This document shows positions 7,294 to 56,418 of a DNA stretch of 56,418 nt, one piece after another. The position numbers and the translations under genes are program-made. Source of the stretch: a virus. The first letter of the stretch is position 1. Every line of letters begins with the position of its first letter. The notes under the pieces were generated by a model. It ran no database searches, was not told the DNA's origin, and was given only the letters and a program-made list of their open reading frames with translations. The stretch covers positions 1-56,418 of the IMG/VR virus record IMGVR_UViG_3300046529_001172, one strand, 5' to 3'.

Positions 7294-7404
7294 TCACCAT
7301 CCAAACAAGTTGGCAAAACAGCGCAGTGCCCAGAGGAACACGATAATCGATATGATGGCGGCGATCAGGAACCCGATGCACCCGCGCAGTTCAGACTTCG
7401 GCAT
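7294..7404 (-). CDS. 36-residue one-helix membrane protein
   Basis: A very short ORF: five polar residues, then a strong helix (about 9-27, GFLIAAIISIIVFLWALRC) and a short tail. Its ATG shares a base with the upstream stop (TGATG), typical of coupling, and the lipoprotein gene follows after 21 bases. A holin, pinholin or inner spanin-like part are possible, but the chain is short for an inner spanin. Confidence 0.5.
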   Translation of the reverse strand: MPKSELRGCIGFLIAAIISIIVFLWALRCFANLFGW

Positions 7405-8678
7405 CAGTTGGTGGTAACCGTATTGCCCTGTCCAATCAAGGTTGCCTTGTCCGCGACACCCTGGCCTGATGGAGCGGCGTTCGTTCCCAAGTTCAAAGTA
7501 TACGTGTACGCAGTGTGGGCCGAGGCAACACCGCGAGCGAGAATCGCATTGATCGACGCAGCATTGAGCGCGCAGGACGACATATTAATCGTGGAATTGT
7601 TCAAGGTGAAAATCGCAACGCCGATACCCAGAGTTACGAGCGCTGCATTGCCTGATCCATTGTAGGTGTTACGAATAGTTGCCAGTGTGGGCATTGTAAA
7701 AGTTTGCAGGACAGTGCAGCCAGTGAACAAAACCTGTTGAACATCAGCCACGTTCGGCAAGTTCAACGAAACCAAGGATGAACAACCATGGAAATCAATC
7801 AGCGATCCACCACCCGCCAGTTGAGTCAAATTAACAGATGTTAACTGCGGACAAGTATTGAAATCCACATGCTGCCCAATAGTTCCGCAGTTCGGCAAGC
7901 TGAGAGAAGTCATTAATGGGCATGGACCCGCGACTAAGTTGCCACCAATCGTGGTCAGCACAGGAGCACTGAAACTGGTGATGTTGTTTTGTTGAAACTG
8001 AAGATCGCCAGTCGTGCTTATCAACGCGGGTAATGTGAAAGCGCCGATCAATCCACCTGGTGCGGCCAATCCAAAAAACAAACTGCCGCCCACGGTTGCC
8101 AGTGAAGTCAGTGTCACCGAAGTGCAATTTGGGTTGAGGGAAAAATTCAGGTTCCCGAGGCACGACTTCAGCGCAGGCAGTGAAATTGAAGTTATCGCGG
8201 CCTGATTGGAAGCCGTGAAATTGCCAAATGCACGAACCAATGTCGGGAACGAAACCGACACAACCGAACTAAAATTGAACGAAGCACTTACGACTGAACT
8301 GAACGCGGAGCAGTTGGTGCTGTTGCATGCTCTGACTTTGTAGTACCAAATGTTCTGATTGGCCATTCCGGTCGCATCCGTTGCCGTAGCCACTCCCCCG
8401 CCAACCGTGGTGAACAGATTGAAGTTAATGCCATCGGTAGACTTCCAGACTTCGTTGCTGCTGCCTGGTGTCGCCGGATTGGTCCATGTGAGCACCACGT
8501 TCGCCTGATTTGAAGCAAACGTAATATCGAGATTGGTGGGAGCGGCGGGAGATGCCGCCACATTGCCGCGCTGTGCGAACTGGCACAGGAGGTAAGTCCT
8601 GATCTGCATTAACTGACCATCAGTGAGGCAGCGGAAGCAGGAGGACAATCGAGACAGGTTATTGACGTCGCAGTTCAT
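7404..8678 (-). CDS. Fibre/receptor-binding protein: anchor motif, FnIII, leucine-rich repeats
   Basis: 424 residues. Residues 9-37 hold a Cys-containing motif, SSCFRCLTDGQLMQIRTYLLCQF, almost identical to the start of the next protein upstream. Residues 45-132 form a fibronectin type III domain (VVLTWTNPATPG, YYKVRACNSTNCS). From about 135 come repeated ITSISLPAL / VTLTSLATVGG units, like BspA-type leucine-rich repeats, up to about 370; Asn/Thr-rich C-terminus. Domain order (shared N-terminal motif, then variable binding modules) is that of tail fibres or spikes. It is coupled (TGATG) to both neighbours. Which receptor it binds cannot be told. Confidence 0.75.
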   Translation of the reverse strand: MNCDVNNLSRLSSCFRCLTDGQLMQIRTYLLCQFAQRGNVAASPAAPTNLDITFASNQANVVLTWTNPATPGSSNEVWKSTDGINFNLFTTVGGGVATATDATGMANQNIWYYKVRACNSTNCSAFSSVVSASFNFSSVVSVSFPTLVRAFGNFTASNQAAITSISLPALKSCLGNLNFSLNPNCTSVTLTSLATVGGSLFFGLAAPGGLIGAFTLPALISTTGDLQFQQNNITSFSAPVLTTIGGNLVAGPCPLMTSLSLPNCGTIGQHVDFNTCPQLTSVNLTQLAGGGSLIDFHGCSSLVSLNLPNVADVQQVLFTGCTVLQTFTMPTLATIRNTYNGSGNAALVTLGIGVAIFTLNNSTINMSSCALNAASINAILARGVASAHTAYTYTLNLGTNAAPSGQGVADKATLIGQGNTVTTN

Positions 8679-25007: not shown

Positions 25008-25162
25008 TTTTTGATATACCAACTGAGTGCTTTCCAGTTACCGACCGCGATGCAGTAAAAATAAATCCCACTCTTTTTGAACCCGCCCTTTCGAAACCGG
25101 ATGAACCGATCAGTTTCATTGCGTGGTGCTGGAGTGGTGATTTTTACTCCGTAGATACTCAT
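25004..25162 (-). CDS. 52-residue protein within glycosyltransferase cassette
   Basis: Short ORF with start and stop both coupled to its neighbours (ATGA at 25159-25162 and 25004-25007). The product is basic and aromatic (DRFIRFRKGGFKKSGIYFYC, then IAVGNWKALSWYIKK). Coupling on both sides makes it likely to be real. No family recognised. Confidence 0.55.
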   Translation of the reverse strand: MSIYGVKITTPAPRNETDRFIRFRKGGFKKSGIYFYCIAVGNWKALSWYIKK

Positions 25163-26484
25163 ACCCACTGCTCCGGAAACCCGTAAATCGCTGCAGGCCG
25201 ATCGATGCGGGTGTTTGGATTCTTAGGCCACTCCTCCACTGCCACGGGTTTGTGCAGTGCGTGCGCGATGGCAAGCGCAAAACTCTGGTTGCCAGCAAAC
25301 TTCTGCGCGCCTGCGATAACTCGCGCCAGTGCCAGTGCGTTGGACGTCACGCAGTAATCAAATTTGCAGTGCGGAGCGAATCCGCGAAACAATTCATACT
25401 CCTGCTCTTCACCCACGAATACCATCTCCTTGTGGAAGCGCTCGATGAACCGCGTCCAGTTAAAGTTCAGGTCTTGGTAGCGAGCCGTGCGGTTGACCAC
25501 GATTGGCTTGGTGACAATTGGGTTCGGAACGGTGAGCCAGGGATCCGTTGGGAGCGGCAATCGAAATGCGTCACAGTGCAGCTTCAGGATGGTATCGTTG
25601 TCTTTGGCACTGCGCTGCCTCCACGGGATGCGGAACCGGTTCAGGTCATGCGTGGTCGAGGCTGGATGCCCATGCGTGTAGCGGCACTTCAGAATGTAGT
25701 CCTGAGCCTCGATGAGTGGAGCCAGGTTGTCCACCCACGATGCCTCGCCGCCCATTCGCGTCCAACGACTGTCGAGCGGATGCGGATACTTATTGTGCGG
25801 CGTCAGGAACAGCATGCCACCGCCGGTCGCCTTCACCACCGCCAGTCCGTAAATAACGTCACCGGCATCACCGGAGTGCGTGTAGATGTTGCAAACACGT
25901 TTGTCAGCAGGCAGGTGAGTGAGCAGGCTGTGGAATCCAAATTGACCATTCCAGAATTGCGGGATGCCCTTCCATTCAAGGTTGTCCCAAGAGCGACCTT
26001 CCATGGCGAAGTCCTTCGCGACTTCAAATGGCGCAATCTTGAGTCCAGCATCCTCGACTTCACTTCGATGTCGTCCACAAATACACGAGTCCTCGGGATG
26101 AAAGTCGGGCCAGTTTTGCTTCGATATAAATTCCATCAGGCGCTTGCTTCGAAGTGAGAATCCACCGTTGCCCACGATGCCAGCAGGATTGAACGGTGCG
26201 CCGATGTAATCGTATTTAAGAAACTCATCCGACCAGGCATTACCGTTGAGCACGTAGCCATCGTACTGGATCACCAGCGCGTGCGAGGTGTCCACGTACT
26301 TGTGCATGTCCTGAATGCAAAACCGGGAGTAGTTTCCCAAGCTATCAATCGGAAGGTGGGTGATAAAATTTACGAACCCGAAATCACACTGCTCCTGAGA
26401 TTTCTCAATCGCTCGAAGTGCCCATGAACGCTTTGGCGTGCAGTCCGCGCACAGCAGCGTGACCTGTGGAAGTGAGGGCTTCAC
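25159..26484 (-). CDS. DUF5672-type domain fused to GT9-like glycosyltransferase
   Basis: 441 residues in two parts. N-terminal (about 1-190): HALVIQYDGYVLNGNAWSDE, YDYIGAPFNPAG and VGNGGFSLRSKRL mark the DUF5672 family of putative glycosyltransferases. C-terminal (about 195-441): IYTHSGDAGDVIYGLAVVKA near 201-220 and a late KFAGNQSFALAIAHALHKPVAVEEW near 400-425 are typical of heptosyltransferase (GT9/GT-B) proteins. A fused two-domain transferase; usually the parts are separate genes. First glycan gene of the cassette. Confidence 0.75.
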   Translation of the reverse strand: MKPSLPQVTLLCADCTPKRSWALRAIEKSQEQCDFGFVNFITHLPIDSLGNYSRFCIQDMHKYVDTSHALVIQYDGYVLNGNAWSDEFLKYDYIGAPFNPAGIVGNGGFSLRSKRLMEFISKQNWPDFHPEDSCICGRHRSEVEDAGLKIAPFEVAKDFAMEGRSWDNLEWKGIPQFWNGQFGFHSLLTHLPADKRVCNIYTHSGDAGDVIYGLAVVKATGGGMLFLTPHNKYPHPLDSRWTRMGGEASWVDNLAPLIEAQDYILKCRYTHGHPASTTHDLNRFRIPWRQRSAKDNDTILKLHCDAFRLPLPTDPWLTVPNPIVTKPIVVNRTARYQDLNFNWTRFIERFHKEMVFVGEEQEYELFRGFAPHCKFDYCVTSNALALARVIAGAQKFAGNQSFALAIAHALHKPVAVEEWPKNPNTRIDRPAAIYGFPEQWV

Positions 26485-36889: not shown

Positions 36890-39800
36890 GTGGCATACGA
36901 CTTCACAGAGGACGACTTCTCACCGAAGAGCCAGCACACGTTCACTGACGAAGATTTCCTTCCCAAGACTCAGCGCAACACCGACATCGATGCGGGTTTG
37001 GATTTCTTTCAGCGCACGCACCCCGAGTTGTATCCGCAACAGGGCCCAGGCATTCAACCTGTAGATTCCACGAGTGCCGCCACGCCGGTTGCTCCAGCTC
37101 CTGCCCCTGCCCCGGGAACAATTGGACCAACTCCATTTCGGCCACCCCCAATTTCGGCTATGGCGCAACAAATGGCGCGCGGCGAACCGGTCACTCAACA
37201 ACCCGGAGAGGTGCTCGAGGAACCTGTGAGCCCATATCGGTTGCAGCATCCCCAAACGCCGTTTGAAGTGATGCAAATGCCGACCTCGATGCCGGTACCG
37301 AAGATGAGCGAGGAGACGGGCACAAAAATTGCGGGCTACATCGACAAGTTGCGGGCCGGCCAATCAACACCGGAACAGTTGAAGGCAGGCGGTCAGATCA
37401 TCGCTGGTGGTGAACAGGCAATCGCTGGAATAGTGGACTTCATGACCTCTCCTGCGGGCATGGCTACGGTGATGACTGCAGGTGTCATGGGTCCGGAAGT
37501 CGCAGGCGCCAGACTCGCATCACTGACGCAACGTGGAATCTCCAGCGCCTATGCATTGGACATGCTCAGGAATGCACCAGACCAGGCTGCGCGCATTATG
37601 GAAGCCATCAACAGCGGCGACAAGCTGACTGCGACCCGTGAAATTGTTAATTCGTTGGTTTCCGCTGCAGTGATGGGGCATGCGGCAAAAGGTGCGGTCA
37701 CCCCGCTCCCAGAGGCAATGCCCACACCAGAAATCTTGCGCCGACCCGGGGAAGGTCCAGCAGTCCCCGACGTTCAGGACGTCGTCAAGAACTGGTACCA
37801 GAACAAGCGGATGGCGAATGAGAAGATTGTCGACATCGGCGGCACGGCTGTGCCGGTGGAACGGCCGATGCTGACCCCTGGCGAAGTCATTTCGGAAGCT
37901 CTTAAAAAAGAGCCACTACAACCCGCAGCTCCAGAGGCTGCACAACCAAAGGAAACAAGTGCCAGCAGTGACCAGAAAGCAGCAGAAGTTCATGGCGGGG
38001 TGCAAGAACAACCCAAGCTCAATGAAGGGCAAGTGCCCGCCAAAGAAGGTGGCGCAGGAGTTCAGCCGAATGTCGAAGGACAAGCGCCACGTGAAGTATC
38101 ACTAGCCCCACACGAGCAGATTGCCAAAGACCTGGGCATTGCCGCGCGCAAGCCAATCAGGAACCTTTGGCAGTTTGACATCACCGATCCAATTACGGGA
38201 CAACCAGCGGGCTTCAGCATCAAGGAAGGGTCAACACCAGAGCAGGTGAAGGCAAAAGCCGACGACTTGCGTAAAAAGTTTGTCGAGGACATCGGACAGA
38301 ACCTCACACCCGACATCGTTGACCGGTTGACCACGGCAGAACTCCAACAGGTGATGGGCAAGCGCGGCCACCGAGTTGGAATCGAATACGGAGAGACGCT
38401 TACCGAGAAAGATGTGCCTGCACTGCAGGCGAAATACGATGCGACCCTTAAGGCGATGAAGGAAGCGTTCGGGAAAGGGGACATCGGGGCAGCGCAGAAG
38501 GAAGGTGCAAAACAGATTTTCCTTGGTGGCGCATTGATGGGTGCGACCAAGGGCAAGCATCCAATTTCTGGTGCCAACTACGAAATGTATCTGAAGCAAA
38601 AGGCAGCAGAGAAAGCTGCCGCTACTCCAGCATCTCCTGCAGCGCCTACCGCTCAAGCACCGGCGGCACCTGTAACCACTTCCGCTGCCGTTCCATCGCA
38701 CGTCAAAGCGCGCATGGAAGGCGAACGACAGGCCAAGCTGCAGGGCAAGTGGCAGAAGTTAGTAACTGCTCCGAAGGAAGGTCGTCAGGAAATCATCGAT
38801 TCACTCACAGGTGAAGAGGCTGGGGAGTTTGTAAAACGCGGAGAAGCTGGACCTCCCGGGACATTCGATCCGGAGCTTAAACAGGCGCTGGTAAAAAAAT
38901 GGCACGGTCCCGGGTGGATTGAGAAAGCTGAAGAGACTGCTGAGACAGGTCAAGGAGAAGCAGGCGAGCTCAAACCCGAACCCAAACCTGCAGCGCCGGC
39001 CCCGGTAAAACCCAAAACCGTCACACCACAACTCAGTGATGCGGAACTTAAGACAATCATCGACGCACTCACTGGGGGCACACCAGATCCCGATCTGAAA
39101 CAGTCGTTAACGAAGAAATTGTCTCCTCCCATTCAGGTCCAGCCAAAACCAGAAGCACCAAAACGCTCGCCTGTTGTTCCTATCGATGAGCCCGCGTTAC
39201 GCAAACAAGGTGCCGAAGAGATTGGCGACTACGAAGAGGAGTTTCGTCGGGCGTGGCATCCCAACTCGGATTACCTGGCCGAGTCGGTGCGCGATGCAGT
39301 AGGAGATCCAGAGTTCCAGAAGCTGTACAAAGCTGTCACTGGCATCCAGTTGAAGGGACACTCGGCCAATTGGCCCAATGCGCAGAAGGGCATTTTGAAT
39401 TTTATTAGGGACGTTACTTCCGGAGCAAAACGACCGACACCCCTCACGCTGGATCAGCGAAAACTCGCGGCATACGTCCGCTACGCTCATCCGGAAATAT
39501 TCCACCAGTTGCAGCTTCAAAAGATAGCTGAAGCTGCAATGAACAAACAAACAGGGCGTGGACTCAGCAGTACGGATTACATGGATGCTGATTTCAAAGA
39601 AGCGTTCGCCCTGGACAAGCTTAAGGGTTTGGGCCTTACCGATTTCGGTGGGTTCAATCTGGACGACTGGTCGGACGCCCGAGAGCACGTTTGGACCCAG
39701 AAGCCAGGCCTCGCCGCGTGGATTGAGAAGAACATTAAAGGCAAAGACCTCGGTCCAATTGCGGAGGAACCGGAAGAGCAGGTGATGGCCAATCAGGAGG

Positions 39801-42800
39801 AGGGGCAACAAGCTCGCGGTGGCCCCACTCACGGTCTGCCTGCAGGTGTGCCTGACCGTGGACCGAATTTTCCGGCCGAGCTGATGGAAGCCAGTCGCCA
39901 GTTGGGCTCGCTCGTGCGTTCTCGAGCCACGCTACGCCCAGGCGTCCTGGGCCAGTTTGTTCGCACGCTCCAGAAAGACCTCATCGAAGTCGGCGATGTC
40001 CGTAATCAAATGACGGTGTCGCACGAAATCGGTCACGCTCTGGATGGCAGGCTCTGGCCGGTTCAAAACTATGGTGAAAGCCAGCGCAGTCTCGCGGAAC
40101 GGTTAGCGCAAACCTATCCTACGACCAGTCCACAGGACCTGGCACGATTGGGCAAGGAACTGCACACCGAACTGACCCCAATCAGCGTTTTGATGCGTGG
40201 TCCTATGGTCGGCAGTCCTGGCCACATCCAGTATCGCAAGCGCGCCACCGAACTCATTGCGGATTACTTCGCGCTGTATGCGCACGACCGGAATCGTGCG
40301 GCCACCATGGCACCGAAATTTACGAAGGGGTTTGAAGATTCACTGACTCGCGATCGTAACACTGAGGAGATAGTTCAGGGCATCGTCGCGGGGAACGTGG
40401 TTCCCAAACCTCCTTCGCCAACTTTGCCTGCGGCGTTAGCAGGCATCACCGGTACCGCGCCACAGCCAGGCACCGCAATGCCTGGAGCGGTACCGGTACC
40501 GCCGAAGTTTCCACCGCCGGTTCGTGAACGTGACGCAGCCGTCGCGGCAGAAGATCGGGTGAAAGGATCAGTCAGAACCGAAGTGGCGGAAGTGGAAGGG
40601 GCACGCATCGATGCCGAGGAATGGCGCAAGCGCGTTCCGGATAAGAATCAACGCAATGACGTCGGCGCATTTGTTGAGGGTATCGGCAACCTCGAGAAAC
40701 CAGGCGACACCATCGACCGTGTCCGCAACCGGATGACTCCGAAGATGGAGCGGTTGGCCAAGGACTATCGGCTCGGCCAGGAACTGCAGCGGCAGGAACA
40801 GAACAAATATCTCAAGGACACCGAAGAGGGTGAATACCTGAGTTACATCGAGGATTACCTCGGCCATTTCTACGTCGACAGCTCGGCCAAAAGAAGCGCG
40901 GTGGCCAGCAGGTTTTTGAAGGACTCGCCGCACGCCAAGCAGCGTAAGTTGCCGACCTTGAAAGAGGCGGTGGAAATGGGGCTCACTCCGATCACCCAGG
41001 ATCCCACGGTCACCTACGAGTTGAATGCTCGAGTCAATTGGCGAGTAGCCACCAACCGAAAGTTCGTTGCCGATCTGAAGAACATAACGACTGCATCCGG
41101 GGAACCGGTGGTCGTGCCCGCCAGTCAGGCTCCTGCAGGTTGGGTGATCACCAACAATCCTCTCATTCAGCGCGTGTATGCACGGCAGACACCTGGTGGA
41201 CTCATGCTGTGGAAAGGTGGCGCGGCCATCCATCCCGACGTCTGGCATGCAGCGCGTCAAATTCTGGAAACGCCAATCTCAGGCGACATCGGCAAAGCGT
41301 ATGATGCCATCAACGCGTTCACTCGAGCCAATGCATTTGCGTTTTCTCTATTCCACGATCTCACTCTGCGCAGTGCCGCGGTCGGTTCGATGGCCACGCC
41401 ACTCAATCCATTGCGTGGGCTGATTCGAATCATGGAACGCAATCCGATCACCGGCCAACTGGAGCTGTTCCAATCCACTCGAGGCCTCGGCAAGGAAATG
41501 CTGCAGATGCGGGAGATTGTTTATGACGCGGCTCTGCACGGGCTCAAGTTCGGATTCAACGACAGTGAAGCGTACCAGCACGCAGCCCGCACATTCCTCG
41601 ATCGGTTGGCGGCAAAGTTGCGCGACACACCAGTACTGGGAAAGACATCACGACTCGCGCGCGACATCCAGCAATGGCGGCAGGAAGGACTCTGGAAAAA
41701 CACCCACGACGCTTTCAAGATTGTCACCTACCACGACCTCGTGTCGAAGGCGCTGCAGAGCGCGCCACCAGGCACCGATGTCAAGCAAGTGAAGGAACGC
41801 ATTGCCTCACTTCTCAACGATGCGTATGGCGGTCAGGAATGGCAGACCAAATTCTGGATGAGCCCAGGCACGCGAAAAATATTCAGCCGATTTTTCCTGG
41901 CACCGGACTGGACGATTTCCACGCTCCGCAGTGTGCCGGGATTGTCTGATGTGGCCTCGACCGTTCGCGAGCAGGCACCTCGGATTGCAGGTCGGGAAAC
42001 TTTCCCCACACAGAAAGAGGGACTCGGTGGCAATGCCCGACGCTTGCGATTTTGGGGTGCGGAGTTGGCAGCGCTCGCCATGGCAACTGTCGCCGCGCAA
42101 TACGCCATCTACAAATTACTGGGTGACGATAAGAAGGGCGACAAACCATTCATCTGGGACAACGAGCTGAACCAGAAGGGTCGTGTCGATGTGACACCCG
42201 TCATACGTCATTTGCCGTGGACTGATAAGAAGGATCCGACTCGGCACTACGTCAACCTGGGCAAGCGACCGGCGGAAATCATTAATTGGTTTACCGACTT
42301 CGACAAACAAATCCTGTCCAAGGCCAGCCGACCAGCGGCAATGGTGTTCGAGCAGATCGCCGGTACCGAAGGCGACTTCAAAGCGCCGTGGAAACAGGAC
42401 CATGAGTCGTTCATCGAGAGTTTGCCGAAGCGCGCTCAGGCGATCGGGAAGCAGGCGCTGCCGTTTTCGTTCATGGGAAATCAATTGGCGCTCTCCGTGC
42501 CGGCCCGCAAGGGCATGACCAAGTATAAGGCGCAGCAGGCATACGAAAGCGTGTTCGAACTGGCGACAGAGCCCAATCGTCTTCGCTCGTTCCTGCGCGG
42601 CCAGACACCGTCAGAGGGCAGCATCGCCGAGATGAGCAAGCAAATCACCGATGCCGCACAGCGCAATGGTGTCCCCGCCCTCGACGTCATGCGCCACGCA
42701 CTCTCAGTCGTGCGTGGGCATCACTACAACGAATTCTTCAAGGCATTTCAGTCGGGCGACCAAAAGAAAATGGACGAGGAAGGTCGGGCGCTCCTCGTCC

Positions 42801-42874
42801 TGGGATCCACCACTGATGAGATTGAACAATCGGTGAAAAAACGCGTGGAGCTTATGCCGACCCCGGTGGAGTAG
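36890..42874 (+). CDS. Giant internal/ejection polyvalent protein with metallopeptidase motif
   Basis: 1994 residues from GTG 36890 (ATG 36880 is out of frame). N-terminus with repeated DFSPKSQHTFTDEDFLPK, then Pro/Ala-rich linkers (to about 800). Around residue 1040 lies SHEIGHALDG (His1045, Glu1046, His1049) and at about 1121 ATELIADYFALYAHD (Glu1121), a zincin triad spaced as in gluzincin-type peptidases. From about 1150 the chain is helical with one hydrophobic helix (ELAALAMATVAAQYAIYKLL, about 1722-1741). Such giants enter the host with the DNA. The peptidase may cut envelope proteins or peptidoglycan cross-bridges; that is inference. No lysozyme motif seen. Confidence 0.75.
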   Translation: MAYDFTEDDFSPKSQHTFTDEDFLPKTQRNTDIDAGLDFFQRTHPELYPQQGPGIQPVDSTSAATPVAPAPAPAPGTIGPTPFRPPPISAMAQQMARGEPVTQQPGEVLEEPVSPYRLQHPQTPFEVMQMPTSMPVPKMSEETGTKIAGYIDKLRAGQSTPEQLKAGGQIIAGGEQAIAGIVDFMTSPAGMATVMTAGVMGPEVAGARLASLTQRGISSAYALDMLRNAPDQAARIMEAINSGDKLTATREIVNSLVSAAVMGHAAKGAVTPLPEAMPTPEILRRPGEGPAVPDVQDVVKNWYQNKRMANEKIVDIGGTAVPVERPMLTPGEVISEALKKEPLQPAAPEAAQPKETSASSDQKAAEVHGGVQEQPKLNEGQVPAKEGGAGVQPNVEGQAPREVSLAPHEQIAKDLGIAARKPIRNLWQFDITDPITGQPAGFSIKEGSTPEQVKAKADDLRKKFVEDIGQNLTPDIVDRLTTAELQQVMGKRGHRVGIEYGETLTEKDVPALQAKYDATLKAMKEAFGKGDIGAAQKEGAKQIFLGGALMGATKGKHPISGANYEMYLKQKAAEKAAATPASPAAPTAQAPAAPVTTSAAVPSHVKARMEGERQAKLQGKWQKLVTAPKEGRQEIIDSLTGEEAGEFVKRGEAGPPGTFDPELKQALVKKWHGPGWIEKAEETAETGQGEAGELKPEPKPAAPAPVKPKTVTPQLSDAELKTIIDALTGGTPDPDLKQSLTKKLSPPIQVQPKPEAPKRSPVVPIDEPALRKQGAEEIGDYEEEFRRAWHPNSDYLAESVRDAVGDPEFQKLYKAVTGIQLKGHSANWPNAQKGILNFIRDVTSGAKRPTPLTLDQRKLAAYVRYAHPEIFHQLQLQKIAEAAMNKQTGRGLSSTDYMDADFKEAFALDKLKGLGLTDFGGFNLDDWSDAREHVWTQKPGLAAWIEKNIKGKDLGPIAEEPEEQVMANQEEGQQARGGPTHGLPAGVPDRGPNFPAELMEASRQLGSLVRSRATLRPGVLGQFVRTLQKDLIEVGDVRNQMTVSHEIGHALDGRLWPVQNYGESQRSLAERLAQTYPTTSPQDLARLGKELHTELTPISVLMRGPMVGSPGHIQYRKRATELIADYFALYAHDRNRAATMAPKFTKGFEDSLTRDRNTEEIVQGIVAGNVVPKPPSPTLPAALAGITGTAPQPGTAMPGAVPVPPKFPPPVRERDAAVAAEDRVKGSVRTEVAEVEGARIDAEEWRKRVPDKNQRNDVGAFVEGIGNLEKPGDTIDRVRNRMTPKMERLAKDYRLGQELQRQEQNKYLKDTEEGEYLSYIEDYLGHFYVDSSAKRSAVASRFLKDSPHAKQRKLPTLKEAVEMGLTPITQDPTVTYELNARVNWRVATNRKFVADLKNITTASGEPVVVPASQAPAGWVITNNPLIQRVYARQTPGGLMLWKGGAAIHPDVWHAARQILETPISGDIGKAYDAINAFTRANAFAFSLFHDLTLRSAAVGSMATPLNPLRGLIRIMERNPITGQLELFQSTRGLGKEMLQMREIVYDAALHGLKFGFNDSEAYQHAARTFLDRLAAKLRDTPVLGKTSRLARDIQQWRQEGLWKNTHDAFKIVTYHDLVSKALQSAPPGTDVKQVKERIASLLNDAYGGQEWQTKFWMSPGTRKIFSRFFLAPDWTISTLRSVPGLSDVASTVREQAPRIAGRETFPTQKEGLGGNARRLRFWGAELAALAMATVAAQYAIYKLLGDDKKGDKPFIWDNELNQKGRVDVTPVIRHLPWTDKKDPTRHYVNLGKRPAEIINWFTDFDKQILSKASRPAAMVFEQIAGTEGDFKAPWKQDHESFIESLPKRAQAIGKQALPFSFMGNQLALSVPARKGMTKYKAQQAYESVFELATEPNRLRSFLRGQTPSEGSIAEMSKQITDAAQRNGVPALDVMRHALSVVRGHHYNEFFKAFQSGDQKKMDEEGRALLVLGSTTDEIEQSVKKRVELMPTPVE

Positions 42875-43397: not shown

Positions 43398-44228
43398 ATG
43401 AGCCTAAAAATCCTGAAGCCATTAAGCGATGGGGAGGAGTTCGAACTAACCGACTGTGAAGAGAAGATTGAAGCTAACCTGAGTGGCTTCTGGGACTGCC
43501 TGTTTTCCTTCTCCAAAATCCGCGAGTTGAAACTCTGGCGCAAGCACTACGAATCGTTTGAAGAGTACTGTGAACAACGCTGGGACATCACCTCCAGGCG
43601 GATGAATCAGCTTATCAAAGCACACGAGGTGAAGACCAGTTTGCCCAAGGAATTCGCGAAGCTCATCACCAACGCTGCTCAAGCTGCCGCGGTCGCCAAT
43701 GTTCCGGAAGAGCAGCGCGAGGAAGTGCTGGAAGAGGCATCGCGGAACGGTGATATCACTGCAAACGGCATCACTGAAGCTGCGGAAACCGTTACCGCTA
43801 CCACGCCGGCCCCGGTTCGCGTCCTGAAGAAACTTTTCTACGATGAGATCGGCGAGATCATTCCCGATGAGGCGCTCCCATTCTGGCACCGCAAGCAGGA
43901 GGTGCAGGATCTAATGACCAGCATCACTCGAATCAAAACCCATCTGAGTGAAGCGATCAAAAAAGAAGACCCAATGTTTGCGCGCATGGGCAACGGAATC
44001 ATCGTTGATATCAACGCGCTCTACACTTCGATTAGTGAAGCCAAACCGTACACAGTCTGCAGTCAGTGCATGGGATTCCCGAGCATGCAACCGCACGGGT
44101 GCGGTTACTGCCGCAACAAGGGGCTCATCTCCAAATTCCAATGGGAGCACAACACCCCACAGGAGATCAGGAACATCCGGTTGGCAGCAATCGCCGACCG
44201 GCAGAAGAACGAGAAGAACCATGTTTGA
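43398..44228 (+). CDS. DNA-binding-type protein with C-terminal zinc knuckle
   Basis: 276 residues. An early HTH-like segment (ESFEEYCEQRWDITSRRMNQLIKA, 52-75) with ParB/regulator-like character, a helical middle (about 85-130) and a C-terminal Cys group at 221, 224, 235 and 238 (CSQC...CGYC). First gene of the DNA-metabolism operon, overlapping the helicase gene by 8 bases. A replication-origin binding or operon regulator role fits its place. Family not named. Confidence 0.65.
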   Translation: MSLKILKPLSDGEEFELTDCEEKIEANLSGFWDCLFSFSKIRELKLWRKHYESFEEYCEQRWDITSRRMNQLIKAHEVKTSLPKEFAKLITNAAQAAAVANVPEEQREEVLEEASRNGDITANGITEAAETVTATTPAPVRVLKKLFYDEIGEIIPDEALPFWHRKQEVQDLMTSITRIKTHLSEAIKKEDPMFARMGNGIIVDINALYTSISEAKPYTVCSQCMGFPSMQPHGCGYCRNKGLISKFQWEHNTPQEIRNIRLAAIADRQKNEKNHV

Positions 44229-45951
44229 AGATCGGTATTATCAGACGGAGGCAGTTGACGCGATCAACCAGCAATTTCGCGAGGTCCAATCCACACTCAT
44301 TGAGCAGGCCACCGGCACCGGAAAAACCGTGGTGTTCGGTCGCGTTGTAAAATCGCGCCTGCCGAAACGTGCCATGATCCTGGCACATCGCAGTGAACTA
44401 CTCTCTCAGGCGCGAGAGAAGCTCATGGAGATTTGTCAGTGCAATGTGGAGGTGGAGCAGGCCGACCAGTACGCCAATACGCACGGCATCTGGAGGGCAC
44501 CAGTCGTGGTGTCCTCGATTCAATCGCAGTGCAGCGGGCCTAAGGACAACCGGCGCTACAAACGCTTCAACCCAGATCATTTCGAGACGATCATTGCCGA
44601 CGAATGTCACCACTCCACTGCAGCCACCTGGCGGGAAACCATTAACTGGTATCTGCAAAATCCCAACTGCCGGTTGCTGGGCGTAACCGCGACCAGCGAT
44701 CGGGCCGACGAAGAATCACTCGGGCAGGTGTTCAAATCCGTCGCCTACAAATATGGCATTCTGGACGCGATCCGTGATGGCTACCTGGTCGACATCACCC
44801 AGCAATTTGTGAAGGTCGGTTCGCTGGATTATTCCCACATCAAAACGACCTGCGGCGATCTGAACGAGGGCGATCTGGAAAAGGTCATGATGATCGAGTC
44901 GACCACGCAACGAATTTGCCAGTCCAGCCTGGAAGCGATGTTCGCGCTTAAACCCAAGACGCTGGACGAGGTCCCCGTTCCGGAGTGGAAAAGTTTTTTC
45001 AAGGCACTGGGCCGAAAGCCACGACGCACCATCGTGTTCACGGTTAGCGTGGCCCACGCGGAGATGTGCGCCAATATCTTTGGCCGCGCCATGGACGGTG
45101 TGGAGTGGGTCTGCGGAAAAACTGCGAAGGAAAGACGACAGGAAATTTTGACCCAGTTTAAAACCGGCGAGATTTCAGTTTGCGTCAACGCCATGGTGCT
45201 CACCGAGGGATACGACAATCCATGGGTGGAGCTCATCGTGATGGCACGCCCCACCAAGAGCCGATCGCTCTATGCCCAGATGGTCGGCCGTTCCACGCGC
45301 ACGCTGCCAGGAGTGGTGGACGACATTCCTGAGGCAGATGTGCGCCGACTGCTGATTGCCCAGAGCGCCAAACCCTTCTGCCGCATCCTTGATTTCGTCG
45401 GCAACAGTGGCAAGCACAAGCTCATCACCGTGGCCGATATTTTGGGTGGTCATGTGACCGAGGCTGCAAAAGAGAAAGCGGTGAAAGTCGCCATGGAGAA
45501 GGAAGCGCCGGTTAAAATCATGGTGACCATGTCCAATGCCGAAGAGGAAATTGAGCGGCAACGCCAATTGGCCATGGAGAAAGCGCGCAAGCTCGAGGAG
45601 TCGCGCAAGTCGCATCTGCTGGCGAGGTCAGAATTTCACCTCACCGAAGTGAATCCGTTTTCCAACGATCACGAACGGATTCCACTGCATAAACGCCGCT
45701 CCAAAGATGGCCGGTTCTTCAGCGAAAAACAGTCACGCGTTTTGCGCCTCGCTGGGTGCGACCCGGAGAGATTTGGTTACAAGCAGGGTCAGGCCATCAT
45801 CACCTCGTATTACAAAAAGCATCCTGCGAGCGCGAAGCAAGTGGAGACGTTGAAACGATTTGGGTTTGATCCAACTGGCTGGACGCACGCACAAGTGAAG
45901 GCAACGCTCGACCGACTCGCGCAAAACAAATGGAAGTTGGTGAATGCGTGA
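44221..45951 (+). CDS. SF2 DEAD/DEAH-type helicase
   Basis: 576 residues from ATG 44221. Motif I TGTGKT (31-36), motif Ia ILAHRSEL (53-60), motif II DECH (127-130), motif III TATSDR (156-161), then NAMVLTEGYDNP (motif V) and QMVGRSTRT (motif VI). C-terminal extension from about 430 is charged and coiled. Belongs to the phage/UvsW/RecQ-like superfamily 2 group of ATP-dependent DNA helicases. With primase and recombination proteins it would drive fork remodelling. Downstream genes overlap. Confidence 0.9.
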   Translation: MFEDRYYQTEAVDAINQQFREVQSTLIEQATGTGKTVVFGRVVKSRLPKRAMILAHRSELLSQAREKLMEICQCNVEVEQADQYANTHGIWRAPVVVSSIQSQCSGPKDNRRYKRFNPDHFETIIADECHHSTAATWRETINWYLQNPNCRLLGVTATSDRADEESLGQVFKSVAYKYGILDAIRDGYLVDITQQFVKVGSLDYSHIKTTCGDLNEGDLEKVMMIESTTQRICQSSLEAMFALKPKTLDEVPVPEWKSFFKALGRKPRRTIVFTVSVAHAEMCANIFGRAMDGVEWVCGKTAKERRQEILTQFKTGEISVCVNAMVLTEGYDNPWVELIVMARPTKSRSLYAQMVGRSTRTLPGVVDDIPEADVRRLLIAQSAKPFCRILDFVGNSGKHKLITVADILGGHVTEAAKEKAVKVAMEKEAPVKIMVTMSNAEEEIERQRQLAMEKARKLEESRKSHLLARSEFHLTEVNPFSNDHERIPLHKRRSKDGRFFSEKQSRVLRLAGCDPERFGYKQGQAIITSYYKKHPASAKQVETLKRFGFDPTGWTHAQVKATLDRLAQNKWKLVNA

Positions 45952-46706
45952 ACTTCTTCATCGGCCTAGACAACCCGTCCCATGCTTGGCCGTTCAAACG
46001 CTCGATGATTTCCATCAACCGAATTCGAAACCGCAAGGGCGAGTTCTACATCAACGAATGGATAATGGACAGTGGAGCGTTCACCGAGATCTCCACACAC
46101 GGGAAATGGCGCACGCCAGTCGAGGATTATGCCAAGCACATTATTCGGTGGGCGAACACGGGCGAGCTGCAAGCAGCCGTGGCGCAGGATTACATGTGCG
46201 AGGACTTCATTCTCGAGAGGACAGGCCTGTCCATCGAGGACCACCAGCGTTTGACCATAGAACGGTACCGGCAATTGATTGCCCTGGTCGGAGTTCCGGT
46301 GCTGCCAGTGCTGCAGGGTTACTCGCCGACCGATTACATTCAGCATGTCGAGGACTACGGAGAATTGCTTAAGCCTGGGCAGTGGGTGGGAGTGGGCAGC
46401 GTCTGCAAGCGTAACGCCAACCCAGATGCAATTGAACATGTGCTGCGGTCAATTAAGGCGCTTCGGCCAGACCTGCGCCTGCACGGGTTTGGTTTGAAGA
46501 TCACCGCGTTACAGAACGGCAGTGTGCGCGACCTGCTGCATTCTTCCGACTCGATGGCGTGGAGCTTTGCTGGCCGAAAGAACGGCGATGCGCACGACCC
46601 ACGAGCAGCGCTCACTTACTGCGCGCAGGTGCAGGATATTTTGAAGGCACCGTGCCTCATTCAGGATTCACTTTTCGACTGGTGGTATGAAAACCCAACC
46701 CAATGA
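45948..46706 (+). CDS. dpdA: DpdA-family 7-deazaguanine DNA transglycosylase
   Basis: 252 residues from GTG 45948 (GTGA overlap with the helicase). TGT-type barrel: WIMDSGAFTEI (Asp41), AAVAQDYMCED (Asp81), GVPVLPVLQGYSPTDYI, WVGVGSVCKRN (147-155), HGFGLKI and SSDSMAWSFAGR (199-210). These fit DpdA, the phage and bacterial relative of queuine tRNA-ribosyltransferase that swaps guanine for a 7-deazaguanine in DNA. Shorter than tRNA TGT and without its zinc site. Paired with a QueF-like gene next door. Confidence 0.85.
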   Translation: MNFFIGLDNPSHAWPFKRSMISINRIRNRKGEFYINEWIMDSGAFTEISTHGKWRTPVEDYAKHIIRWANTGELQAAVAQDYMCEDFILERTGLSIEDHQRLTIERYRQLIALVGVPVLPVLQGYSPTDYIQHVEDYGELLKPGQWVGVGSVCKRNANPDAIEHVLRSIKALRPDLRLHGFGLKITALQNGSVRDLLHSSDSMAWSFAGRKNGDAHDPRAALTYCAQVQDILKAPCLIQDSLFDWWYENPTQ

Positions 46707-47022
46707 ACAACGGTGCGCTGGTATGATTGAGATCCATGAGTTGGACATTCCTTCGTGCTGTCCGGTCACCAAGAACCCGCAACCAGGCAGCGTGCTCAAA
46801 ATCAAATACCGACCAAAACGAGTTATCCTCGAGGTGGAATATTTGGAAATTTACATCCGCGAGTACGTCGGTGGTCGCCTGGACGTTCGCAGCATGGAAG
46901 GCATGGTCCAGAACATCGCTCAGGACTGCGCCAGAACACTGGGCGTGAAGGTAAAAGTGACCGCCAAATTGATTCTCCTGCCGAAACAGAAAATGAAACT
47001 GCAGTGCACCGCATGGCCTTAG
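46687..47022 (+). CDS. QueF-like T-fold protein (preQ0-related)
   Basis: 111 residues, 20-base overlap with dpdA. DIPSCCPVTKNPQPGSVLKI, LEVEYLEIYIREYVGG and RSMEGMVQNIAQDCARTLGV follow the layout of the unimodular QueF/T-fold family: CPxT, then a Glu motif on the next strands. The Asp that follows the catalytic Cys by seven positions in nitrile reductase QueF is Gln here if the alignment is right, so reductase chemistry is doubtful. It may act on preQ0 in another way, for example amidation or transfer. Strong context for DNA 7-deazaguanine modification. Confidence 0.7.
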   Translation: MKTQPNEQRCAGMIEIHELDIPSCCPVTKNPQPGSVLKIKYRPKRVILEVEYLEIYIREYVGGRLDVRSMEGMVQNIAQDCARTLGVKVKVTAKLILLPKQKMKLQCTAWP

Positions 47023-47882
47023 AAAAACATCCATGGATTCGCGCGCGGCACGACTTCAAGTGCGGCAGCTGCGGCAAAGCTGACTGGTGCTGCTTCAACG
47101 CAGGCCTCTACGGTGGACCTGGTTGGTGCTGCATGCGCAACACCAGCGCCACGCCAATGAAGAATGGTGGCTACTGGCATGCACTCACCGAAGCGCCGAG
47201 GAAAATTCCCAAAGCGCCACCACCGGAACCGTCGATTGATTGCGGCACCATCATGTTGGGATTCCTTGCTCAAACCGCACCAGAATGGGTCGAGCAGTTG
47301 GCCTTACTTTTAAAAGTCTCAGTGGTGTCACTATGGAAAATCGGTTGCGGTTGGGCGACCGGAAGAGATCTGAGACGCTACATGAAATGGCAGGGTGGTG
47401 GTAGTTGGGCATTCCCAATGAGAAACGGGAACGGAGTAATTGTCGGCATCCGATTGCGCACCACTCAGGGAGAAAAAATTGCAGTGCGAGGTGGACGAGA
47501 TGGTGTGTTCGTTCCGCAAGTGCCTGCACAAAAAACCGCTTACATTGTGGAGGGTCCGACCGACACTGCAGCGTGTCTGACGCTTGGGGTATTCGGTTTG
47601 GGCCGGCCAAACTGCAGGGGCGCCATCGCGCACACACAGGTCACAATCAATCGACTGGGCATCGAGCGCGCCATCGTCGTGGGTGAGCCTGACGTTCCGA
47701 AGTACGAGGATCAACAGAGCCCAGGCATCGAGGGCGCGAAGCGGTTGGCTCAGGAGCTGCAGATCCCGGTGGCGAGCATGGTGTTACCGGCCAAGGACAT
47801 GCGAAAATTTCTGGAAATGGGCGGCACCAGGCCCGTGCTCGAGTCGATGGAAAAACATTTGGTATGGAAATTGCCGGAATAA
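47013..47882 (+). CDS. Toprim-domain DNA primase-like protein
   Basis: 289 residues from ATG 47013. N-terminal zinc knuckle (Cys17, 20, 26/27, 39/40; CGSCGKADWCC, WCC), a linker (about 50-80), then the Toprim fold: YIVEGPTDTAAC (Glu181), VVGEPDVPK (223-231) and a closing SPGIEGAKRLAQ. The arrangement is that of phage and plasmid primases without a helicase domain; the helicase is the separate SF2 gene upstream. No polymerase motif. Primes lagging-strand synthesis on host polymerase. Confidence 0.8.
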   Translation: MALEKHPWIRARHDFKCGSCGKADWCCFNAGLYGGPGWCCMRNTSATPMKNGGYWHALTEAPRKIPKAPPPEPSIDCGTIMLGFLAQTAPEWVEQLALLLKVSVVSLWKIGCGWATGRDLRRYMKWQGGGSWAFPMRNGNGVIVGIRLRTTQGEKIAVRGGRDGVFVPQVPAQKTAYIVEGPTDTAACLTLGVFGLGRPNCRGAIAHTQVTINRLGIERAIVVGEPDVPKYEDQQSPGIEGAKRLAQELQIPVASMVLPAKDMRKFLEMGGTRPVLESMEKHLVWKLPE

Positions 47883-48064: not shown

Positions 48065-48269
48065 ACTCAATCCGCCACTGTTGGCCTGTCACACAAACTG
48101 GACGCTCAAAACTGCGCTCAGTGAAGTGGAGATCCAAAAAGAAAAGCGTTACCTCATCACGGAGCGGTTGGGAATTTTGTGCGGCACAGGCGAGCCCGAC
48201 ATCGATGCACTGGCGCATGCGGTCACTGAGGCCGATGAGTGGGAAGCGCGGTACAACGATTCCATCTGA
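48051..48269 (+). CDS. Small hypothetical protein
   Basis: 72 residues, ATG 48051. Helical (ALSEVEIQKEKRYLITERLGILCGTGEPDIDALAHAV), acidic end. Overlaps the previous gene by 14 bases and the methyltransferase gene by 31. No family known to me. Confidence 0.55.
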   Translation: MDATELNPPLLACHTNWTLKTALSEVEIQKEKRYLITERLGILCGTGEPDIDALAHAVTEADEWEARYNDSI

Positions 48270-49333
48270 ACTATTACAACGAAAATAATCCAGTCGCCGC
48301 GGAGTGGCTCTTGCGTCTCATGGGCGAGGGGCTGATCCCGCTGGGTGACATTGACAAACGATCCATCAAACATGTCGAACCAACTGACCTTCGGGGATAT
48401 ACCCAGTGCCACTTCTTTGCGGGAATCGGTGGATGGCCATTGGCTCTGCACCTGGCCGGATGGCCCGAGTCCCGACGAGTGTGGACTGGAAGTCCACCCT
48501 GCCAACCCTTCAGCTGCGCCGGAAAGTACCGTGCTGCCAGTGACGAGCGCCATCTCTGGCCTCGATTCTGCCGAATCATTTGCGAAGGACAATCGCTCTA
48601 TGGAGTTCCAACAATCTTTGGAGAGCAGGTTTCGAGCGCGCTTGGCCGGGAGTGGCTCGTCGGAGTACGAGCTTCGCTGGAAGCAGTGGGTTATGTCGTC
48701 GGGGCCGGCGATATTTGCTCTGCGGGCGCTGGTGCGCCGAATATCCGGCAACGGCTCTACTGGGTGGCCCACGCCTCGATCGAACGAAGCAGGTCAATGG
48801 CAGACGGACCATACTGGCAAGAAATATCTGACACTGGACGGGGCAGCGCATGCAGCGGGCTGGCCGACGCCACACAGCGGTGCTTCGAAGGGCCCAGGCG
48901 CGCACAACCCCAATGGTGTGAACCTGCAGACGGCAGCGCAAACGGCTGGGTGGGAGACACCCAACGCGAGGGACTATCGGCAATCCGCCAGGAGCCAGCA
49001 TGGCCTGGTGCCGCAGGCGAACAAACTGGCCGGTTGGGCCTCGCCGAAGGAACGGGATTACCGGTCGGCATCAGCAACGGAGGAAGCAGTGGCGCAGTGG
49101 TTCCAGCATCCACGGGGGAAGGATCTGGAGAAGGAAGTCACGCACTTAACTTCTGGAGTGAGTCCCGATGGCACTGGTGCCGTGATGGGAAGTACCGAAG
49201 GATACCTGTTGAACCCGCATTTTTCCCGCTGGCTGCAAGGGTATCCGGCAGAGTGGCAAGCCTGCGCGGATATGGCAACGCGATCAATCCGCAGGTAGCG
49301 GCGGAATTCGTCAAAGCCTACATGGATTTATGA
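48239..49333 (+). CDS. DNA C5-cytosine methyltransferase
   Basis: 364 residues from GTG 48239. Motif I CHFFAGIGGWPLALHLAG (FAGIGG 60-65), motif IV TGSPPCQPFS with catalytic Cys88, motif VI-like FGEQV (127-131), motif VIII RQRLYWVA (170-177), a long variable region (about 180-330, target-recognition domain) and motif X RGYGNAINPQVAAEF (343-357). This is the layout of Dcm-type enzymes that methylate cytosine C5 in DNA. Likely protects phage DNA from host restriction; recognised site unknown. A second ORF in another frame overlaps it (48345-49298). Confidence 0.9.
   Translation: MGSAVQRFHLNYYNENNPVAAEWLLRLMGEGLIPLGDIDKRSIKHVEPTDLRGYTQCHFFAGIGGWPLALHLAGWPESRRVWTGSPPCQPFSCAGKYRAASDERHLWPRFCRIICEGQSLYGVPTIFGEQVSSALGREWLVGVRASLEAVGYVVGAGDICSAGAGAPNIRQRLYWVAHASIERSRSMADGPYWQEISDTGRGSACSGLADATQRCFEGPRRAQPQWCEPADGSANGWVGDTQREGLSAIRQEPAWPGAAGEQTGRLGLAEGTGLPVGISNGGSSGAVVPASTGEGSGEGSHALNFWSESRWHWCRDGKYRRIPVEPAFFPLAARVSGRVASLRGYGNAINPQVAAEFVKAYMDL
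48345..49298 (+). CDS. Alternative-frame ORF inside the methyltransferase gene
   Basis: A 317-codon ORF in the +1 frame, wholly inside the cytosine methyltransferase gene, without stop. Its product has repeats of the type GWPTP and ends LNPHFSRWLQGYPAEWQ, features I have also seen in annotated phage proteins. Those could be a shadow of the conserved methyltransferase codons (GLADA, GDTQ) or a true overprinted gene. A proper test needs codon-level conservation. Treated as uncertain. Confidence 0.3.
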   Translation: MTLTNDPSNMSNQLTFGDIPSATSLRESVDGHWLCTWPDGPSPDECGLEVHPANPSAAPESTVLPVTSAISGLDSAESFAKDNRSMEFQQSLESRFRARLAGSGSSEYELRWKQWVMSSGPAIFALRALVRRISGNGSTGWPTPRSNEAGQWQTDHTGKKYLTLDGAAHAAGWPTPHSGASKGPGAHNPNGVNLQTAAQTAGWETPNARDYRQSARSQHGLVPQANKLAGWASPKERDYRSASATEEAVAQWFQHPRGKDLEKEVTHLTSGVSPDGTGAVMGSTEGYLLNPHFSRWLQGYPAEWQACADMATRSIRR

Positions 49334-56162: not shown

Positions 56163-56330
56163 ATGACCGACCGACAAAAAGCAATCGTCGCCTGCTGGGA
56201 GCGCTGGGATGAAGATGAACCCGACATTTCCACCGAACAATTAATGGCCAGAGTCTGCACCGATTGCAATTGCGATGCGGGGCACGTGGCTGAAGCGTTA
56301 CATCAACAACAAACCGAAACCGAATCATGA
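56163..56330 (+). CDS. Small acidic hypothetical protein (complete copy)
   Basis: 55 residues, ATG 56163. MTDRQKAIVACWERWDEDEPDIST, then RVCTDCNCDAGHVAEALHQQ. Stop overlaps the RecT start as ATGA. This is the complete version of the gene cut at bases 1-162. No family recognised. Confidence 0.65.
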   Translation: MTDRQKAIVACWERWDEDEPDISTEQLMARVCTDCNCDAGHVAEALHQQQTETES

Positions 56331-56418
56331 CTGCACCAATTCAAACTGCACCATCGCCGCAAACCACTGCGGCCGTTAAACCCAAAAAGACCGAGTTCGA
56401 GATTCTGCTCGAGAAGGA
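56169..56418. repeat. Terminal direct repeat, right copy
   Basis: Same sequence as 1-250 except position 56292 (G here, C at 124). Continues the early operon into the RecT gene and shows that the genome is circular or terminally redundant. Confidence 0.95.
56327..56418 (+). CDS. recT: RecT/Bet gene, second copy of its 5' end
   Basis: First 92 bases of the RecT gene at 159-1409, repeated by the terminal overlap and cut by the window end. On the circle it is the same gene. Confidence 0.9.
   Translation, partial: MTAPIQTAPSPQTTAAVKPKKTEFEILLEK

Follow-up and report, generated by a model that had tools for sequence, protein, structure and literature searches.

Why would a virus that encodes no enzyme of preQ0 synthesis place a gene for a DpdA-type transglycosylase directly before a gene for a QueF-like protein, and what might the second protein do? 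The question arises from IMG/VR virus record IMGVR_UViG_3300046529_001172, the whole of which (56,418 bases, hereafter the window) was analysed. DpdA phages without a precursor pathway form a large class, and it is difficult to foresee whether or how their DNA is modified (PMC6884629). A pair of this kind offers a compact two-gene system for learning in what way these phages draw on host precursors and which base finally results. The answer put forward here, tentatively and with somewhat less than even confidence in the whole, is that the two genes may form a virus-borne cassette in which DpdA inserts a host 7-deazaguanine and the QueF-like protein changes its nitrile non-reductively.

A direct terminal repeat of 250 bases (positions 1-250 and 56169-56418, one mismatch) makes the record terminally redundant and probably a complete genome, which renders an absence of precursor genes informative. 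Both frames of the pair, with an overlap of exactly 20 bases, stand where the initial annotation had put them, as do the motifs DSGAF, GVGSVC, CPVTKNP and LEVEYL that it had read in their products (Table 1). For DpdA the reading frame could begin at ATG 45930 or GTG 45948, of which the GTG is the better start because it overlaps the helicase stop (GTGA) and matches the start region of homologues; the QueF-like frame opens at ATG 46687. The helicase stop and the next downstream ORF overlap the pair on either side, and all four genes appear to be translationally coupled. The helicase is not kept as a partner in the other QueF-like lineages, and a Pfam search with the downstream ORF at 47013..47882 gave no match. 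The methyltransferase gene farther downstream lies in the same operon direction and is a second DNA-modification gene. Given that most other large ORFs tested in the window had no PHROG or Pfam match, the phage must be very divergent. A 1994-aa ORF at 36890-42874 has no Pfam match of any kind, and the phage also encodes a BspA-type leucine-rich-repeat protein (7404-8678, minus strand) and a DUF5672 protein (25159-26484, minus strand). No tRNA was found in the window, and no Rfam family scored above threshold in it, so that the known families of preQ1 riboswitch are absent.

Table 1. Features at the DpdA/QueF-like locus, in window coordinates; residue numbers in the residue table cited as a basis exceed those of the papers by one.
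Feature	Position	Strand	Basis or remark
DNA helicase, directly upstream of DpdA	44221..45951	+	PHROG 16, E 3.8e-76; start from sequence
DpdA-type guanine transglycosylase (predicted)	45948..46706	+	252 aa from GTG 45948; 258 aa from ATG 45930
DpdA Asp in DSGAF	46068-46070	+	motif
DpdA Asp in HSSDSMAW	46548-46550	+	motif
QueF-like T-fold protein (predicted)	46687..47022	+	111 aa; hhalign, QueF profile, residue table, six-lineage alignment
Cys25, equivalent to QueF Cys55	46759-46761	+	invariant in six lineages
Gln32, at QueF Asp62	46780-46782	+	residue table
Glu49, equivalent to QueF Glu78			residue table
Met70, at QueF His96			residue table
Glu71, equivalent to QueF Glu97 substrate anchor	46897-46899	+	invariant in six lineages
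ORF overlapping the QueF-like stop, perhaps primase	47013..47882	+	by eye: CGSCGKADWCC zinc-ribbon-like, YIVEGPTD TOPRIM-like
C5-type DNA methyltransferase	48239..49333	+	PHROG 363, E 2.2e-63; cytosine-C5 type by eye

The assignment of the first gene of the pair to the DpdA-type transglycosylases, resting on profiles and a predicted fold, is secure, and here the initial annotation was right. The product matches Pfam DpdA (PF23859) at E 2.5e-39 and 135 bits, against a cut-off of 27, and PHROG 1279 at E 1.5e-62. An AlphaFold2 model built from 39 relatives reached a pLDDT of 89.7, and its top PDB matches in Foldseek were the TGT 7a3x and 7ui4, a crystallised DpdA that inserts preQ0 into DNA (E about 2-3e-6, probability 1.00). 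Across 90 relatives the motifs DSGAF, QDYMCE (QDxMCE), GVGSVCKRN (GVGSVCKR) and HSSDSMAW (DSMAW) are near-invariant, and the two catalytic-type aspartates, D47 and D207, are conserved at 0.98-0.99; by motif, the aspartates of DSGAF and HSSDSMAW presumably correspond to TGT D102 and D280. Relatives number at least 233 in IMG/VR contigs and 25 in GTDB genomes, and 399 isolate-phage records, mostly of mycobacteriophages, are matched. Weak matches to TcpF/Pol_BBD in Pfam and to TcpF in PDB were dismissed as chance. In a suitable host, this DpdA probably inserts a 7-deazaguanine into DNA.

Judged by profile comparison, the product of 46687..47022 is homologous to QueF, and its right label is QueF-like rather than QueF. 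It matches NCBIfam QueF-II (TIGR03139) at E 1.3e-6 and 28.3 bits, far under the 86.9-bit cut-off, and Pfam QueF (PF14489) at E 0.03 and 15 bits, against a cut-off of 27.3. A profile of 11 QueFs finds it at E 7.2e-9, and when a profile of the six QueF-like lineages was aligned to QueF with hhalign, the probability was 97% (E 1.1e-10). The same procedure with controls from the same phages gave 7% for FolE, 0.6% for QueD and 0.05% for QueC, which rules out these three (all below 8%) as the relatives in question. The nearest PDB matches were QueF and QueF-L, at a marginal E of 0.03-0.07. The T-fold, QueF-like identity first proposed is thus upheld, albeit below curated cut-offs, and the profile searches place both proteins inside the TGT and QueF/T-fold families. 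Structure modelling, recommended as a check at the outset, succeeded for DpdA and failed for its partner: AlphaFold2 with six sequences gave a poor model (pLDDT 49.7), whose Foldseek matches are meaningless and carry no structural claim here; the order beta-beta-alpha-alpha-beta-beta is seen only in that low-confidence model. Weak tblastn matches to Rinkes and Funsized (E 0.2-0.6) were likewise set aside as evidence of homology, profile methods being used instead. No relatives of the protein were found in plasmids, and a peptide-pattern search of GTDB genomes found none.

What sets this protein apart is its active site. QueF sequences have been defined by Cys55, Asp62, Glu97 and a motif with Glu78, E(S/L)K(S/A)hK(L/Y)(Y/F/W), proteins missing any of these being left out (PMC5372742). 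The window protein belongs to a clade of six divergent viral lineages (window, L007, L019, L087, L088 and L090), all of which retain the thioimide cysteine and both glutamates. The position of Asp62 reads Q, Q, Q, Q, L and K, and never Asp, whereas the ten QueFs from phage records all keep Asp62, as does QueF-L. The lysine/NADPH motif ESKShK is also lost from all six, only its Glu being kept (EVx[SYA]Lx); Met stands at the position of His96, and no RGG remains at the C-terminus. In their place are invariant residues of the clade's own: NExRC near the N-terminus, Cys10, His17, RSMEG, Cys81 and Cys107. Strong purifying selection acts on the QueF-like genes of the six lineages, synonymous change being high or saturated. 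The glutamine first remarked upon in place of the Asp that follows the catalytic Cys is therefore real and, because six lineages have the same loss together with invariant residues of their own, the Asp-less pattern is, as the alignment has it, the signature of a clade. Taken at face value, the sequences mark out a small branch of QueF proteins that had not been recognised before and that is without a residue QueF needs.

The link to DpdA proposed in the initial annotation holds beyond the window. The QueF-like gene lies directly downstream of DpdA in five of the six lineages, the sixth (L087) being a contig of 5.2 kb without DpdA. Gene by gene, the window has DpdA and the QueF-like gene in common with the genomes of the other lineages and very little else; the pair thus behaves as a cassette, and its recurrence in otherwise unrelated viruses argues that the two genes are coupled. 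In a tree of 95 DpdAs, which lacks the L088 sequence, the four DpdAs of paired lineages form, together with that of L008, a five-member group with support of 100/94. L008 lacks a QueF-like gene; the ORF right after its DpdA (L008:2153-2359) starts MVELKTQENERA, compared with MVELKSQPNETRC in L019, and then diverges. Deletion of the partner gene may have left this ORF as a remnant, though the matching stretch is short, and the DpdA frame that overlaps it accounts for part of the likeness. A profile scan of 50 other DpdA viral records found no QueF-like gene (a repeat on ten records recovered six of six known carriers), and the bacterial DpdA genes retrieved had none next to them. Because it was a QueF-like query that brought in L088 and L090, the share of DpdAs with a partner in an unbiased set is about 3 in 80. 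Since most relatives of the window DpdA have no QueF-like gene, a second step must be optional. Two of the lineages have peculiarities of their own: the DpdA of L088 (L088:2-808) carries, between its QDWMCEP motif and TGL, a cysteine-rich insert EGCPKRCRPRGKKPCGRGCFWG absent from the other paired DpdAs, and upstream of the QueF-like gene of L087 lies a C5-cytosine methyltransferase-like ORF (L087:5-1897) with an intein-like insert (CFPAETLILAKRG ... VVHNC).

Where, then, might the base come from? Searches that were all positive in control genomes found no QueC, PTPS/QueD, FolE or radical SAM (QueE) anywhere in the 56,418 bases of the record, as had been claimed at the outset; all four are also absent from the 36.6 kb and 131.8 kb records, which are possibly fragments. 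In the DpdA-plus-QueF phages Funsized, R5C, Pan1, phi38:2 and Mufasa8, genes of preQ0 synthesis adjoin the pair, and in an immuto phage QueC lies elsewhere in the genome. Among 15 bacterial genomes that carry this DpdA subfamily, QueC gave a substantial match in 13 and a marginal one in two, and QueF scored above cut-off in 12. A precursor supplied by the host is plausible on these gene counts. Moreover, a host already making preQ1 needs no viral reductase, which mildly favours a chemistry other than reduction.

In the mechanism envisaged, DpdA would replace guanine in the phage DNA with a 7-deazaguanine made by the host, preQ0 being the most likely one, a step well supported by family and fold. 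The QueF-like protein might then use its Glu to bind the nitrile of the 7-deazaguanine, and its Cys would attack to form a thioimide, as in QueF and QueF-L, which have this intermediate in common and rely on the Asp for general acid/base catalysis (PMC5485725). With neither the general-acid Asp nor the NADPH-binding motif in place, the thioimide would be resolved by ammonia or water rather than by hydride. This would yield dG+ or dADG, probably on the base already in DNA, by analogy with QueF-L, whose substrate is preQ0 already in tRNA and which uses ammonia (PMC5485725). Lastly, the modified DNA would resist restriction, as 7-deazaguanines are known to shield phage DNA (PMC6884629). That the QueF-like protein tailors the inserted base is fairly likely; that such tailoring is non-reductive is evenly balanced. 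Bolder still, and rather unlikely, is the view that the clade is a new T-fold enzyme acting on DNA-borne 7-deazaguanine with an Asp-less Cys/Glu site, giving a base or chemistry new to phages from a precursor wholly of host origin.

The main rival is a working nitrile reductase that converts host preQ0 to preQ1, or dPreQ0 to dPreQ1, despite the loss of Asp62, leaving dPreQ1 in phage DNA. Its prominence stems from Streptococcus phage Dp-1, whose QueF was predicted to be QueF-L and whose DNA nevertheless contained dPreQ1 (PMC6884629), a case that makes sequence a poor predictor of product; HVTV-1 likewise carries dPreQ1 with a QueF/QueF-L-type protein (PMC6884629). Homology to QueF, the retained equivalents of Cys55, Glu78 and Glu97 and the frequent proximity of phage QueF genes to DpdA are all in keeping with reduction. 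Invariant His17, Cys10 or Cys107 could substitute for the Asp in a reductase, and His96 is also missing from several phage QueFs in the residue table, which counts against the non-reductive reading. Yet both Asp62 and ESKShK, which define QueF (PMC5372742), are gone from all six lineages, the Asp is kept by each of the phage-record QueFs in the comparison, and the likely hosts have a QueF of their own, so that a reductase seems unlikely, if well short of negligible. The lost Asp may instead mean that the protein is no enzyme and either binds the base or serves as a subunit, passing host preQ0 or preQ1 to DpdA or stabilising it. Translational coupling and constant adjacency to DpdA would suit such a role; the invariance of the nucleophilic Cys and the substrate-anchoring Glu, together with 38 further columns, and the many relatives of the window DpdA that manage without a partner make it improbable.

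Activity on host tRNA, in the queuosine pathway, would accord with the TGT fold and with the annotation of members of the DpdA group as queuine tRNA-ribosyltransferase. Bacterial TGT, however, has a CxCxxC zinc motif, which by eye the 252-aa DpdA core lacks, the closest curated family is DpdA, and the pair sits among genes of DNA replication and modification; a tRNA target is accordingly a slim prospect. Slimmer still is the notion that DpdA or its partner is a relic that has ceased to modify DNA, as in phage Orion, which has DpdA only and a host without the pathway, and whose DNA carried no 7-deazaguanine (PMC6884629). The possible remnant in L008, of the same DpdA clade, fits such decay, whereas active-site motifs that stay conserved alongside high synonymous change speak for genes in use.

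Published systems comprise DpdA-only phages and DpdA-plus-QueF phages with the full pathway (PMC6884629). No description was found in the literature of a pair without the pathway, or of an Asp-less QueF-like clade tied to a short DpdA. The nearest kin of the window DpdA is the short singleton phage subfamily (PHROG 1279, PF23859; DpdA-only group 3 of Hutinet et al. 2019, PMC6884629), likewise a short TGT-fold protein in phages without preQ0 genes; its isolate-phage members have about 35-54% identity to the window DpdA, with a strong profile match. The window DpdA is paired with a QueF-like gene, and no such pair occurs among the isolate, prophage and other viral relatives examined of that subfamily. 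The idea of phage-specific tailoring of 7-deazaguanine in DNA is common to the enzymes DpdL, DpdM and DpdN, reportedly described by Cui et al. in 2023, and to phage phiST, said to carry dDG/dCDG; a DpdL-like origin of the clade was rejected, none of the proteins encoded in the examined 50 kb of phiST resembling it. More broadly, the pair is a possible tool to write a base into DNA, and a natural Asp-less QueF homologue is a direct test of how an active site shifts among reduction, amidination and hydration. With unimodular QueF, the NADPH-dependent preQ0 reductase, including that of phages Dp-1, R5C, Pan1 and phi38:2, the clade has in common T-fold homology, the Cys, Glu78 and Glu97 and a genomic link to DpdA, but it lacks Asp62, ESKShK and RGG, has a three-residue insertion before RSMEG and scores under curated cut-offs. 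QueF-L, the archaeosine synthase of Crenarchaeota (PDB 5jyx), is like the clade in size, in a Cys within a CPxS/T motif, in having no canonical NADPH motif, in a helix that resembles the clade's, which ends SYRG, and in acting on a nucleic-acid-bound base, as is proposed for the clade. However, of the Cys-plus-Asp thioimide site of QueF-L the clade has only the Cys, and where QueF-L keeps the Asp and a His-Glu pair, the clade has Q, L or K and Met-Glu.
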